A stretch of 64,000 nt of DNA, from contig NZ_FOZM01000001.1 of NCBI RefSeq assembly GCF_900114675.1, positions 806,001 to 870,000 on the forward strand, read 5' to 3'. The notes beneath the pieces were generated by a model, which worked only from the letters and a program-made list of their open reading frames with translations, searched no databases and was not told the origin of the DNA. The first letter of the stretch is position 1. Each line of letters begins with the position of its first letter. The DNA is from Yoonia litorea (GTDB lineage: Bacteria > Pseudomonadota > Alphaproteobacteria > Rhodobacterales > Rhodobacteraceae). A program made the position numbers and the translations under genes. This document shows positions 1 through 43,836 of the stretch, in pieces.

Positions 1-1401
1 TTTCTTGAGATCGGGGCTACGGCTGCGCACGGGATGTATGGTGGTGCAGCCCCCTGTGCCGGTGTGGTCGCAGGCGTTGGGCGGGTGCATGGCCAGCAGG
101 TGATGGTCGTGTGCAATGATGCCACCGTGAAAGGCGGCACCTATTATCCGATGACCGTCAAGAAACATCTGCGCGCGCAGGAAATTGCGGCGCAGTGTCA
201 TCTGCCGTGCGTCTATCTGGTGGATAGCGGCGGGGCGAACCTGCCCAATCAGGACGAGGTATTCCCTGACCGCGATCACTTTGGTCGCATTTTCTACAAT
301 CAGGCGCAGATGTCGGCGGCGGGGATTGCGCAGATTGCCGTGGTTATGGGCTCATGCACGGCGGGCGGGGCCTATGTACCGGCGATGGCCGATGTGTCGA
401 TCATCGTCAAAGAACAAGGCACGATCTTTCTTGCGGGGCCCCCGTTGGTGAAAGCGGCAACGGGCGAGGTCGTCTCTGCCGAGGCGCTGGGCGGCGGTGA
501 CGTGCATACGCGTCTGTCCGGCGTGGCCGATTATCTGGCCGAAGACGATGCCCATGCATTGGCATTGGCGCGGCAAGCGGTCGCCTCATGTGCGATAGAA
601 AAACCTATTTCAGTCAAACGGTTACCTTCTGAACCTCCTGCAATTGATCCGGCGACGCTGTTTGATGTGGTGCCAGCAGATTTGCGCACGCCTTACGATA
701 TTCGCGACGTGATCAGGCGTATCACGGATGGGTCAAGATTTGATGAATTCAAGGCGCGGTTTGGCGAAACGCTGGTGTGTGGCTTCGCCCATATCGACGG
801 CTGGCCTTGTGGGATTGTCGCCAACAACGGGGTGCTGTTTTCGGAGAGTGCCCAGAAGGGGGCGCATTTCGTTGAACTGTGCAGTCAGCGCAAGATTCCG
901 CTGGTTTTCCTGCAGAATATCACCGGCTTCATGGTGGGCCAGAAATACGAGAACGAAGGCATCGCGCGGCACGGGGCCAAGATGGTGACTGCGGTCGCCA
1001 CAACCAAGGTGCCGAAGATCACGATGGTTGTTGGCGGCTCTTTCGGCGCTGGAAATTATGGCATGGCAGGAAGGGCTTACAGTCCGCAGTTCATGTGGTC
1101 ATGGCCGACCTCGCGCATCTCTGTCATGGGCGGCGAGCAGGCCGCGGGCGTGCTGGCGACTGTCAAGCGCGACGCGATTGAGCGCAAAGGCGGGGCGTGG
1201 TCGGACGCGGAAGAAACGGCCTTCAAACAGCCAACGATTGATATGTTCAACACGCAATCACACCCGCTTTATGCCTCTGCGCGACTTTGGGATGACGGCA
1301 TTATTGACCCGCGCAAATCGCGTGAGGTGCTGGCCTTGTCACTGGCTGCAGCCCTGAACGCACCCATTGAGGAGACACGCTTCGGCGTGTTCCGGATGTG
1401 A
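1..1401 (+). CDS. mccB: Methylcrotonyl-CoA carboxylase carboxyltransferase (beta) subunit, 5' truncated by window
   Basis: Transfers CO2 from carboxybiotin to 3-methylcrotonyl-CoA, giving 3-methylglutaconyl-CoA in leucine breakdown. The frame is open from base 1, so the start lies outside the window; 466 residues are present where the family has about 535. Acyl-CoA carboxyltransferase motifs are clear: [12 protein letters not shown] and [14 protein letters not shown] in the first lobe, [11 protein letters not shown] and [16 protein letters not shown] in the second. Propionyl-CoA carboxylase beta is the main alternative by family, but the biotin subunit, HMG-CoA lyase and hydratase that follow make the leucine pathway much more likely. 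It is separated from mccA by 87 bases that hold an unusual tandem repeat. Confidence 0.95.
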
Positions 1402-1412
1402 TGGAAGTGGCA

Positions 1413-1479
1413 TACACAGCACGTACACAAGCTGTACACAGGCTGTACACCGACTGTGCAGACACCTGTGCAGACATGG
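1413..1479. repeat. Degenerate ~11-bp tandem repeat between mccB and mccA
   Basis: Six head-to-tail units of 11, 11, 11, 11, 12 and 11 bases: tacacagcacg, tacacaagctg, tacacaggctg, tacaccgactg, tgcagacacctg, tgcagacatgg. The junctions create partly palindromic TGTACA or TGTGCA words about one helical turn apart. The array ends inside the mccA ribosome binding site. A related array with an identical 13-base core (CTGTGCAGACACC, here 1454-1466) lies between soxB and soxD at 43411-43480. The repeat is read directly from the sequence; its function is unknown. Confidence 0.85.
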
Positions 1480-1488
1480 AGGTGGTCC

Positions 1489-3399
1489 ATGTTTGACACA
1501 ATCCTCATTGCCAACCGTGGCGAGATCGCCTGCCGGGTGATCAAAACGGCGCGGGCGATGGGTGTGCGCACGGTGGCGGTCTATTCGGATGCAGATGCGC
1601 AGGCCTTGCATGTCGCGATGGCGGATGAGGCTGTCCATCTTGGCCCTGCACCAGTGGCAGAGAGTTATCTGCGCGGCGATCTGATCATTGAAGCTGCGCG
1701 TCTCACCGGCGCGGAGGCGATTCATCCGGGCTATGGCTTTCTGTCGGAAAACCCGGACTTCGTTGAGGCCGTCGAAGCGGCGGGATTGGTCTTTATCGGA
1801 CCATCGGCCAAGGCGATCCGTGCCATGGGGCTGAAGGATGCGGCCAAGGCGCTCATGGCCGAGGCGGGTGTGCCTGTCGTGCCGGGATATCACGGCGCAG
1901 AGCAGGACCCTGCCTTTCTGGCGGACCGTGCTGCCGAGATCGGCTATCCGGTCCTGATCAAGGCGGTCGCTGGCGGCGGCGGCAAGGGGATGCGCCTTGT
2001 GGAAGCGGCATCGGATTTTGAAGAAAACCTGAGTGCGGCGCAGGCTGAAGCCAAGACAGCGTTCGGCAATCCGGCTGTGTTGATCGAGAAATACATCCAG
2101 AGCCCACGCCATATCGAAGTGCAGGTCTTTGGCGATGGCACCCAAGCCGTGCATCTGTTCGAGCGGGACTGCTCGCTTCAGCGTCGCCACCAGAAGGTCA
2201 TCGAGGAAGCGCCTGCGCCCGGGATGACTGACGCGGTGCGCGCGGCCATGGGGGAGGCAGCCGTCAGGGCCGCCGAAGCGATCGGCTATGCCGGTGCTGG
2301 CACGGTTGAATTTATTGTCGACGGGGCGAACGGGCTGCGCACCGACGGTTTCTGGTTCATGGAGATGAACACCCGTTTGCAGGTCGAGCATCCCGTGACC
2401 GAGGCGATCACGGGTGTTGATCTGGTGGAATGGCAGTTGCGGGTCGCGGCGGGCGAAGATTTGCCAGCGTCTCAGGATGATCTGAAAATCACAGGTCATG
2501 CTTTCGAGGCTCGGCTTTATGCCGAGGATGTCCCGGCGGGCTTCCTGCCTGCCACCGGGCGGATTGATCACCTGTCGTTCCCTGACCTTGCGCGGATTGA
2601 TAGCGGGGTGCGGGCAGGGGATGAGATTTCCCCTTGGTATGATCCGATGATTGCCAAGGTGACGGTGCAGGGCCCTGATCGGGGCAGCGCGTTGCGCAAA
2701 CTGCGCGCGGCGCTCGACCGGACAGAAGTGGCGGGCACAGTCACGAACATTGATTTTTTGCGCAAGCTCGCACGCGATGACGGGTTTGCCGCTGCTGCGT
2801 TTGATACCGGACTGATCGCTGCGCGCGGTGCCGGGCTAAGCAATGCGGTTCTGCCGACCGCACGCGAGGTCGCTGTGGCGGCGGTGACAGCCGCAGGCAT
2901 CACGCCTGAGCCTTTGCAGGGCTTTTCGCTATGGGCGCCGTTGCGGTGGCGTATCACGCTGGATTGCGCAGGTCGGACCTATGCGCCACAGATCGAGATG
3001 CTGGCACCGGACCGTTGCCGCGTAACACTGGAGGATGCGCACGACACCTTAGCGTGGTGGGGCGGGACGTGGGGATTGCCTGCTTTGCGTCACGGCGGTT
3101 ACGTCACCGTCTTTGGTGCGGCCACCCACAGCTTTGCGATTGTCGATCCGCTGGCGCGGGATACCGCGGCTGAAGGGGGTGATACAGTCATGGCTCCGAT
3201 GCCGGGGCTGGTGACGGCTGTCGTGGTCAAGGCAGGGCAGGCGGTCACGGCTGGTGACAGGCTCGTTGTGCTAGAGGCGATGAAGATGGAGCATGTGCTA
3301 CGCGCACCGCGCGACGGTGTCCTGGCCGAAGTGGCTGTCGCCCAAGGCCAGCAGGTGGCAGCGGGCGATCTGGTTGCAGCACTGGAGCCAGAGGCATGA
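1489..3399 (+). CDS. mccA: Methylcrotonyl-CoA carboxylase biotin-carrying (alpha) subunit
   Basis: Biotin carboxylase plus biotin carrier of methylcrotonyl-CoA carboxylase; 636 residues, usual for the family. Domains in order: biotin carboxylase N-lobe (ILIANRGEIACRV at the start), ATP-grasp with GGGGKGMR near residue 165 and EMNTRLQVEHPVTE near 290, a middle linker region, and a C-terminal biotinyl domain with EAMKMEH, the biotinylated Lys being about residue 599. A GTG at 1456 would add 11 residues encoded by the repeat; I prefer ATG 1489 because GGAGG (1478-1482) stands six bases before it. Its stop overlaps the next start (ATGA). The ligase that should modify it is encoded at 26813. Confidence 0.95.
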   Translation: MFDTILIANRGEIACRVIKTARAMGVRTVAVYSDADAQALHVAMADEAVHLGPAPVAESYLRGDLIIEAARLTGAEAIHPGYGFLSENPDFVEAVEAAGLVFIGPSAKAIRAMGLKDAAKALMAEAGVPVVPGYHGAEQDPAFLADRAAEIGYPVLIKAVAGGGGKGMRLVEAASDFEENLSAAQAEAKTAFGNPAVLIEKYIQSPRHIEVQVFGDGTQAVHLFERDCSLQRRHQKVIEEAPAPGMTDAVRAAMGEAAVRAAEAIGYAGAGTVEFIVDGANGLRTDGFWFMEMNTRLQVEHPVTEAITGVDLVEWQLRVAAGEDLPASQDDLKITGHAFEARLYAEDVPAGFLPATGRIDHLSFPDLARIDSGVRAGDEISPWYDPMIAKVTVQGPDRGSALRKLRAALDRTEVAGTVTNIDFLRKLARDDGFAAAAFDTGLIAARGAGLSNAVLPTAREVAVAAVTAAGITPEPLQGFSLWAPLRWRITLDCAGRTYAPQIEMLAPDRCRVTLEDAHDTLAWWGGTWGLPALRHGGYVTVFGAATHSFAIVDPLARDTAAEGGDTVMAPMPGLVTAVVVKAGQAVTAGDRLVVLEAMKMEHVLRAPRDGVLAEVAVAQGQQVAAGDLVAALEPEA

Positions 3400-42146: not shown

Positions 42147-43391
42147 ATGAGACGCTATTCTGCTTTTGCCATCGCCAAAGAGGCTATGCGCAACCACACC
42201 GGTTGGGACCGCGCGTGGGCAAAATCTGCACCTAAAAAGAAATACGATGTGATCATCGTTGGCGCTGGCGGGCACGGTCTGGCAACGGCCTATTATCTTG
42301 GCAAGAACTTCGGCATCACCAATGTCGCAATTCTGGAAAAAGGCTGGCTTGGTGGCGGCAATACGGGGCGCAACACCACAATCATCCGCTCCAACTATCT
42401 GCAGGACCCTTCGGCCGCGATCTATGAAAAATCGCGCAGCCTTTATGAGACGATGTCTCAGGACCTGAACTACAACGTGATGTTCTCGCCGCGCGGCGTG
42501 ATCATGCTGGCCCAGACCCAGCATGAGGTCCGCGGCTACAAACGCACAGCCCATGCAAACGCGCTGCAAGGTGTGCAGACTGAATGGATCGGGCCTGAGC
42601 GCGTAAAAGAGCTTTGCCCGATTATGAACATTGACGGACCACGGTATCCGGTTCTGGGCGGCCTTTGGCAGGCCAGAGGCGGCACCGCACGCCATGACGC
42701 TGTTGCTTGGGGCTATGCGCGGGCCTGCTCTGACATGGGCATGGATATCATCCAGAAATGCGAAGTGACCGGCGTGCGTCAGGAAAACGGCAAGGTGATC
42801 GGTGTCGATACCTCACAAGGGCCGATTGACTGCGACAAGCTGGGGATGGTCGTGGCCGGACACTCTGGCGTTCTGGCGCAGATGGCCGGTTTCCGCCTGC
42901 CGATCGAATCCGTCGCGCTTCAGGCGCTGGTGTCGGAACCGATCAAGCCCTGCATGGATGTGGTCGTCATGGCCAACACAGTGCACGGCTACATGAGCCA
43001 GTCCGACAAAGGCGAGATGGTCATCGGCGGCGGCACCGACGGCTACAACAACTACACCCAGCGCGGATCATTCCATCACATCGAGGAAACCGTCCGCGCG
43101 CTGGTCGAGACCTTCCCGATGATCAGCCGCCTCAAGATGCTGCGCCAGTGGGGCGGCATCGTTGATGTGACCGGCGACCGCTCGCCGATCCTGTCGAAAA
43201 CGCCGGTAGAGGGTGTCTTCGTAAACTGCGGCTGGGGCACTGGCGGCTTCAAGGCGATCCCAGGGTCAGGGTGGGCCATGGCTGAACTGATGGCCAAGGG
43301 GCAGTCACCGCTGACCGAAGAGTTCAGCATGTTCCGCTTCCGCGAAGGCAAATTCATCGACGAAAGCGTCGCAGCAGGGGTGGCGCACTGA
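42147..43391 (+). CDS. soxB: Sarcosine oxidase beta subunit
   Basis: Flavoprotein subunit that oxidises sarcosine (N-methylglycine) in the four-subunit enzyme, giving glycine, H2O2 and, with folate, 5,10-methylene-THF. 414 residues: FAD-binding VIIVGAGGHGLATAYYL at 36-52, and GGTARHDAVAW near 178-188, whose His 183 should be the covalent FMN site by alignment from memory. C-terminal FVNCGWGTGGFKAIPGSG closes the flavin site. ATG 42147 fits the usual N-terminus MRRYSAFAIAKEA; the frame is open upstream but that part opposes ccmI. First gene of soxBDAG. Confidence 0.95.
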   Translation: MRRYSAFAIAKEAMRNHTGWDRAWAKSAPKKKYDVIIVGAGGHGLATAYYLGKNFGITNVAILEKGWLGGGNTGRNTTIIRSNYLQDPSAAIYEKSRSLYETMSQDLNYNVMFSPRGVIMLAQTQHEVRGYKRTAHANALQGVQTEWIGPERVKELCPIMNIDGPRYPVLGGLWQARGGTARHDAVAWGYARACSDMGMDIIQKCEVTGVRQENGKVIGVDTSQGPIDCDKLGMVVAGHSGVLAQMAGFRLPIESVALQALVSEPIKPCMDVVVMANTVHGYMSQSDKGEMVIGGGTDGYNNYTQRGSFHHIEETVRALVETFPMISRLKMLRQWGGIVDVTGDRSPILSKTPVEGVFVNCGWGTGGFKAIPGSGWAMAELMAKGQSPLTEEFSMFRFREGKFIDESVAAGVAH

Positions 43392-43410
43392 TGAAGAACG
43401 CCGTTTTCCC

Positions 43411-43480
43411 TGTGCAGACACCGTATGTACGGCCAGTGTACAGCCTGTGTACAGCCGGTGCACACCCGGTGCACAGCACT
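43411..43480. repeat. Degenerate ~11-bp tandem repeat between soxB and soxD
   Basis: A leading tgtgcagacacc followed, after three bases, by five exact 11-base units: tgtacggccag (43426-43436), tgtacagcctg, tgtacagccgg, tgcacacccgg and tgcacagcact (ending 43480). The unit consensus TGYACRSCCNG matches the array between mccB and mccA, and the core CTGTGCAGACACC (43410-43422) is identical to 1454-1466. Each unit carries a TGTACA- or GTGCAC-like palindrome one helical turn from the next. Confidence 0.85.
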
Positions 43481-43506: not shown

Positions 43507-43836
43507 ATGCTGATCCTGCATTGCCCCTATTGCGGCGTCGACGCCGACGAAACCGATCTGCACGCCGGTGGCGAAGCGCATCTCAAGCGTGAGGGACCGG
43601 GGTCGACAGATGATGATTTCGAGGATTATCTGTTCCTCCGCGAGAACCCCAAGGGGGTGCATTTTGAGCGCTGGCGCCATGTCTACGGCTGCGGCAAGTG
43701 GTTCCTCGCGGCGCGCTGCACCAACACGCTTGAGGTCTTTGGTACGTACTCGGCCCAGACGACAGAGCCGCCGCAGGAAATCAAGGATATCATCTCCGAA
43801 AAACGATCCGGCTGGTCGTGGGGGAACTTGTCATGA
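43507..43836 (+). CDS. soxD: Sarcosine oxidase delta subunit
   Basis: Small zinc-binding subunit of heterotetrameric sarcosine oxidase. 109 residues from ATG 43507, with AAAGGG upstream. The zinc ligands fit Cys 6 and Cys 9 (CPYCG), His 58 and Cys 62 (RHVYGC). The frame extends upstream through the repeat, but those residues (repeat-encoded) are not like SoxD. Stop overlaps the soxA start by four bases. Confidence 0.93.
   Translation: MLILHCPYCGVDADETDLHAGGEAHLKREGPGSTDDDFEDYLFLRENPKGVHFERWRHVYGCGKWFLAARCTNTLEVFGTYSAQTTEPPQEIKDIISEKRSGWSWGNLS

Follow-up and report, generated by a model that had tools for sequence, protein, structure and literature searches.

Arrays of phased 11-bp units that are dispersed over the genomes of Rhodobacterales are very probably bound cooperatively by a single orphan member of the BrnA_antitoxin family, a ribbon-helix-helix (RHH) protein that would regulate its own gene and act locally wherever the arrays are dispersed. 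Sequence comparison establishes the arrays themselves, the conservation of their positions, their association with the promoter of the RHH gene and the covariation of the unit core with protein type and with β-strand residues; that this protein is the reader of the arrays is likely on the same grounds. A shared regulator was among the explanations offered in an initial annotation for two arrays in the stretch of DNA analysed here (the window, 64 kb, G000:C8:806001–870000, from a genome, G000, of 3.32 Mb), and it is strongly supported by the covariation of the array core with the orphan RHH gene.

Both arrays of the window are real, as judged from the sequence and from TRF. Array 1 (1412–1473, minus strand) consists of six units and lies between a carboxyltransferase subunit gene (1–1401, plus strand; Pfam PF01039 on 34–1398, E 7e-144) and a gene for a biotin carboxylase / biotin carrier subunit (1489–3399, plus strand, ATG at 1489; Pfam Biotin_carb_N, CPSase_L_D2 and Biotin_lipoyl on 1492–3396), which were named mccB and mccA, respectively, in the initial annotation. 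The mccB gene is cut by the window edge: its called start precedes the window (L036 1440–3002), and the listed open reading frame begins with an ATG at 34. Read on the plus strand, the cores of array 1 are ATACAC at 1412, GTACAC at 1423, 1434 and 1445, and GTGCAG at 1456 and 1468; their spacing is exactly 11 bp from 1412 to 1456 and 12 bp in the last step to 1468 (TRF 1413–1457 and 1454–1476; genome pattern match C8:807423–807460). Array 2 (43425–43474, plus strand) comprises five units at exact 11-bp spacing and is situated between soxB (sarcosine oxidase beta subunit, 42147–43391, plus strand; TIGR01373 above cut-off) and soxD (delta subunit, 43507–43836, plus strand; Pfam SoxD PF04267, TIGR01374 below cut-off). 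Its cores, ATGTAC at 43425, GTGTAC at 43436 and 43447, and GTGCAC at 43458 and 43469, are of the GTGYAC type (TRF 43426–43477; genome matches C8:849436–849474). Array 1 is oriented against the mcc genes and array 2 in the direction of the sox genes, so that the two are oppositely oriented relative to their own operons. An identical 13-mer had been claimed for both arrays, and the claim is borne out: CTGTGCAGACACC occurs exactly twice in the window, at 1454–1466 and, as a leader or variant unit 13 bp out of phase with array 2, at 43410–43422 (plus strand, exact match). This 13-mer is a variant unit whose orientation is opposite relative to each array.

The count of exactly two copies holds inside the window but not genome-wide, where 22 separate arrays of at least three GTGYAC units were counted from the strand-hits of a three-unit pattern (38 strand-hits in G000 versus 0 for the reversed pattern). 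A two-unit pattern, which is its own reverse complement, gave 38 sites in G000, three of them outside arrays, versus 0 for its reversed control. The G000 arrays adjoin unrelated genes, with codirectional, convergent and divergent gaps all represented. Across 84,980 species genomes at least 116 four-unit stretches are present, and among the matches listed 99 of 116 belong by title to Rhodobacterales, a membership that we assume for the genera named there. Relatives carry from a few up to roughly 100 arrays, as estimated from GTCGGM counts; pattern searches miss degenerate arrays, and gene calls relied on a simple codon model. As arrays occur throughout the genome and the order, the link specific to two amino-acid catabolic operons that had been proposed is refuted. 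A repeat scattered at random intergenic sites had been named as the observation that would speak against a specific regulatory role; the arrays are indeed scattered, but not randomly, many positions being orthologous. No title or abstract start describing these arrays or their reader was found in the open-licence literature.

Clustering of the genes beside arrays yielded one family with an array 48–84 bp upstream of the start in seven of eight loci. These seven loci span three different neighbourhoods, and the eighth, in G010, had an over-long called start. In G000 the gene is found outside the window at G000:C8:1866114–1866554, and an array precedes its start by about 73 bp. The encoded candidate reader is a small BrnA_antitoxin protein (Pfam PF14384 in 4/4 homologues, E 5e-12 to 1.4e-16, 46.5–61 bits versus a cut-off of 26.1) that extends beyond the Pfam match at either end; we take this family to have the RHH fold. 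A single-sequence AlphaFold model reached a mean pLDDT of 45, and the PDB holds no credible sequence relative, the sole match being insignificant. The gene is present in 35 of 56 genomes of the genus; of 149 genera that were sampled across the family, 60 gave an RHH match (E 1e-8 or better). A BrnT-like motif, searched for with a regular expression for the family, was absent near the RHH gene in 63 loci (G000 counted three times). Inspection of the sequences revealed FabH-like, CarB-like, helicase-like and other neighbours with no constant partner gene among them, and a motor gene of the parM type was not found in the RHH operon among the loci inspected. In G025:C11:67787–68172 and G035:C10:198336–198612 the RHH gene looks broken, and both genomes have zero arrays of the three tested cores.

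In most upstream regions of the RHH gene a phased array can be recognised by eye, its core varying between genomes. A test without an assumed core (three units, at least 5 of 7 identical positions, 200 bp upstream) was applied to the best-scoring 29 of 59 other genera with an RHH match and to 28 genus loci, excluding L323 (G035, broken gene) and L322 (G009, masked upstream region). A period-11 array was detected in 23/29 other genera and 22/28 genus loci, and periods 8, 9, 10, 14 and 15 gave 0 arrays in both sets; in the other genera three arrays were detected at period 12 and one at period 13, and neither period gave any in the genus loci. Shuffled upstream regions passed at 0.9% (other genera) and 0.1% (genus), and upstream regions of other genes in the RHH loci at 0/34. 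Six of the 29 genera fail at period 11: G223 and G183 have period 12, G144 reaches 5/7 at period 12, and G142, G095 and G225 display nothing clear. Among the six failing genus loci (G078, G033, G021, G022, G068 and G060), five show degenerate units by eye, and no units are visible by eye at the called start in G060. The cognate motif was found both in the RHH gene's own promoter and genome-wide.

The RHH proteins fall into types according to the first residue of their x-x-T-x-R strand, which is K, R, or P/S (type P). From the promoters a prediction was fixed beforehand, namely that K is accompanied by GTCGG arrays genome-wide and P or S by GTACAGA/GTACATA arrays. Type K had been read beforehand in G022, G068, G030 and G014 and was presumed from match rows in G077, G023, G011 and G026; the latter four, read afterwards, all have K and phased GTCGG units upstream. 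GTCGGM arrays occur in 8/8 type-K genomes with 4–171 strand-hits (G022 6, G068 4, G030 5, G014 105, G077 123, G023 116, G011 171, G026 108); elsewhere, 8 further genomes have 1–6 strand-hits and 40/56 none. Likewise, GTACAKA arrays are present in 8/8 type-P genomes with 4–34 strand-hits (G002 4, G004 10, G003 7, G027 21, G017 33, G078 19, G033 7, G021 34), in 5 further genomes with 1–9, and in 43/56 with none. Reversed-pattern controls gave 0, save one match in one genome. The array in the RHH promoter contributes 1 hit to the counts of G002, G027, G017 and G014 and 2 to those of G004, G003 and G030, so that each of these seven genomes keeps at least 3 hits elsewhere. The type-P genomes G017 and G033 also hold K-type arrays (5 and 2). 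Two RHH types, R and K (C2:168980 and C6:68353), are present in G007, both preceded by phased units of the matching kind; this genome holds a few K-type arrays as well.

Array load, taken as the sum over the three patterns with GTGCAC counted on both strands, has a median of 10 in genomes with the RHH gene (n=35) versus 0 in those without (n=21; Mann-Whitney p 5e-6). At least 10 arrays are found in 18/35 RHH-bearing versus 0/21 RHH-lacking genomes, and any array in 32/35 versus 9/21. The three RHH-bearing genomes without arrays are G074, for which a third part of the prediction had named GCATAA, a core outside the three patterns, and G025 and G035 with their apparently broken genes. Conversely, P-type arrays occur without a detected RHH gene in G075 (9 strand-hits), G071 (7) and also G073 (within the range of 1–9), and G019 and G020, without a detectable RHH gene, have 4 R-type strand-hits.

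Correspondence between residue and core extends beyond the genus. In 29 genera, represented by one genome each and sharing common ancestry, K as strand residue 1 goes with a GG core in 8/10 cases versus 0/17 with R, and R at this position goes with a [GA]T[GA]C[AG] core in 12/17 versus 0/10 with K. R as strand residue 5 is accompanied by G as the first core base in 5/5 cases versus 0/7 with another residue. The p-values of this residue code are descriptive only, because the sequences had already been inspected when the motif classes were drawn up.

Exchange of the core is also visible at individual positions. The comparison covers all 16 non-promoter places of G027, 4 of 8 places of G004 and 20 of the many places of G011. 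In type-P G027, 10/16 non-promoter arrays occupy the positions of R-type arrays as judged from both flanks and 2/16 from one flank, and one row also matched the position of a GTGCAC-type array; in type-P G004, all 4 fetched arrays match R-type positions on both flanks, three of them including G000 and the fourth (L381) G016. Many arrays at one orthologous place thus carry the core of their own genome's RHH type. This may amount to a rewiring of a whole regulon, observed at several stages and legible as a protein–DNA code, in the sense that many arrays carry a new core at old positions in at least one switch, from R to P/S. In type-K G011, by comparison, 1/20 arrays is at an R-type position, on one flank only. 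The G011 GTCGG arrays (L382–L401) appear near-identical by eye, and many of them are embedded in a longer context that is itself dispersed, with approximately GAATCAT..GTTAAC to the left of the array and TTAAYGC..GCGCGCGGT to its right; near-identical copies in a longer common context make them look like a separate, more recent amplification.

Such copies raise the question of a mobile or REP/MITE-like repeat that was copied into intergenic gaps, the array in the RHH promoter being one ancient copy. The array copies of G000 have an ordered set of units in common, which fits this explanation, as does the mccB-mccA junction, where filled and empty sites are found across genomes. In all 29 other genomes that had loci, the 140 bp preceding mccA showed no array. 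By our own reading, 15 of these 29 have the mccB stop no more than about 15 bp from mccA, so that an insert of about 80 bp was either gained or lost. G064, outside the 29-genome sample, has an array before mccA; a simple new insertion was therefore rejected for this site, gain and loss both being compatible with the G064 array. Behind soxB, where gaps longer than about 200 bp were viewed in part, G009 has an array of three units and G020 one of two, and in G010 an array immediately precedes soxD.

A repeat that merely spreads is nevertheless an unlikely explanation for the arrays, since the RHH upstream arrays of the other genera stand beside different neighbours and have different cores, since the cores covary with the RHH protein, and since many positions are conserved while spacers drift. 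When the flanks of array loci in twelve genomes of the genus were compared by tblastx, arrays were located at an identical place in several species; for 12 of the 21 G000 arrays that were fetched, one or more other genomes of the genus have an array at the corresponding position, as judged from both flanks. Clustering of the flanking genes across genera, for which all 99 listed Rhodobacterales loci were used and 17 others dropped, showed that Palleronia and a Rhodobacteraceae MAG (SKW120) likewise have the array before the dihydrolipoyl dehydrogenase gene, and a Planktomarina MAG and a Paracoccus the one behind gltD. Between orthologous arrays, spacer positions 5–8 differ in 18–44% of comparisons, and positions 9 and 10, both independent of the search pattern, in 0/88 and 2/88, respectively; core positions 0, 1, 3 and 4 were fixed by the search pattern, and invariance there is uninformative. 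Copying may be how the arrays spread without being why they persist, and binding by the RHH protein is the reading that we retain.

The relation of the arrays to genes was analysed in 91 arrays (73 of the 99 listed Rhodobacterales loci and 18 G000 loci), of which 76 lie in a clear gap, 4 within a called gene and 11 at the edge of a locus. The gap arrays divide into 50 codirectional, 18 convergent and 8 divergent, with 34.5, 15.1 and 12.3 kb of gap sequence, respectively, being available. Codirectional arrays begin at a median of 41 nt past the stop codon. This proximity, together with the self-complementarity of GUGYAC cores noted on inspection, would suit an RNA-level element, with hairpins that terminate transcription or stabilise mRNA. 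Relative to transcription, however, 21 of the 50 codirectional arrays are on the same strand, 22 on the opposite strand and 7 are symmetric, and this absence of a strand preference disfavours the RNA-binding factor that the initial annotation had allowed for. Complementarity of the array flanks is no greater than in shuffles, the helical spacing is constant, and Rfam returned zero matches in the window; an RNA element was therefore rejected as exceedingly improbable. Free orientation relative to genes, in combination with positions kept across genomes, suggests that the arrays act as DNA, and double-stranded DNA is probably their functional form.

Operators of the ordinary kind, read by a repressor or activator that serves a single pathway such as amino-acid catabolism, would account for both window arrays being placed within catabolic operons and for others beside lpdA, gltD, trpA, agmatinase-like (by inspection) and ABC-transporter genes. 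We regard this as quite improbable, since further neighbours, among them arfB, tag, sulfotransferase, MAPEG and (by inspection) FabH-like genes, have no pathway in common, since convergent gaps hold 18 of the 76 arrays and divergent gaps only 8, and since orientation is random. One G000 array even lies in frame inside a beta-mannosidase-like gene (L026:2834–3100), and the orthologous place in G027 (L363) also has an array. Entericidin-like small lipoprotein genes, recognised by sequence inspection, recur beside arrays or the RHH gene (L041, L344, L361).

In the mechanism that we propose, RHH dimers would bind cooperatively, side by side on 3 to 6 cores 11 bp apart; as this spacing is about one helical turn, all cores would be presented on one face of the DNA. 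Via the upstream array the protein would repress its own promoter, in analogy to ParR and YefM. At the dispersed, mostly intergenic arrays, often situated soon past stop codons, the same nucleoprotein patch could form and work in either orientation as a local repressor, a roadblock or a nucleoid-like organiser. The mixed gene set, the free orientation and the gene-end bias suggest a general local effect and speak for roadblock, insulation or nucleoid organisation rather than a pathway regulon.

Several known systems share features with this arrangement. BrnT/BrnA comprises the protein family of the candidate reader (PF14384), and autoregulation is typical of BrnA-like antitoxins; here, however, the BrnT-like motif is missing from the 63 loci, extra sequence surrounds the Pfam match, and the protein appears to read a genome-wide set of arrays. 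MetJ is an RHH protein that binds cooperatively to tandem met boxes of 8 bp and controls an autoregulated regulon. Tandem operators for an RHH protein are the likeness proposed here by comparison, whereas the 11-bp units, the incoherent gene set, the frequent non-promoter positions and the switching core are different. REP/BIME and BOX elements are likewise short, dispersed, intergenic repeats, but the arrays differ in their defined 11-bp phasing and in their covariation with a cellular RHH protein. The YefM-YoeB operator, as described in PMC4803016, contains two TGTACA palindromes, 12 bp centre to centre, which the antitoxin complex binds cooperatively; palindromes about one turn apart are thus common to both systems, but YefM-YoeB has the Phd/YefM fold and two palindromes at one operon.

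A further likeness is to the ParR/parC centromeres of plasmids such as R1 (PMC9426499): ParR, typically an RHH protein, acts on tandem repeats near the promoter of its operon, which are 11 bp long in R1 and of which R1 ParR requires two or more, and specificity varies between families. The present system differs in its many chromosomal sites without a constant motor gene, in its BrnA-type protein and in a unit core that changes between related species. The RHH protein might accordingly bind the arrays as sites that organise or help to partition the chromosome, in the manner of ParR/parC or of nucleoid occlusion; the spread of the arrays along chromosomal contigs and their scarcity in divergent gaps agree with this. 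The RHH gene has no constant partner gene beside it, however, and array positions along three contigs are indistinguishable from random (KS p 0.2–1.0), with no regular spacing; partition-like sites are thus a doubtful explanation. A Rhodobacterales-wide chromosomal address system, in which one orphan RHH protein marks tens of phased arrays and the code was repeatedly switched, at least once in place, is on balance rather probable. If true, it would assign a role to an antitoxin-like orphan family and account for a class of dispersed Rhodobacterales repeats. As a natural experiment, it would also let joint changes of specificity in a DNA-binding protein and many of its sites be followed among related species, making directly testable both the RHH recognition code and how a regulator with many sites switches its code.

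The four-unit 11-bp GTGYAC pattern is also fitted by Bacteroidota genomes, by some more than once, namely in Prolixibacteraceae (L146, L158, L209, L215), the Prevotella group (L161, L218, L220, L227) and Sphingobacterium (L200, L208, L235); these occurrences are either unrelated or parallel. The same pattern is present in 22 viral contigs (L240–L261).
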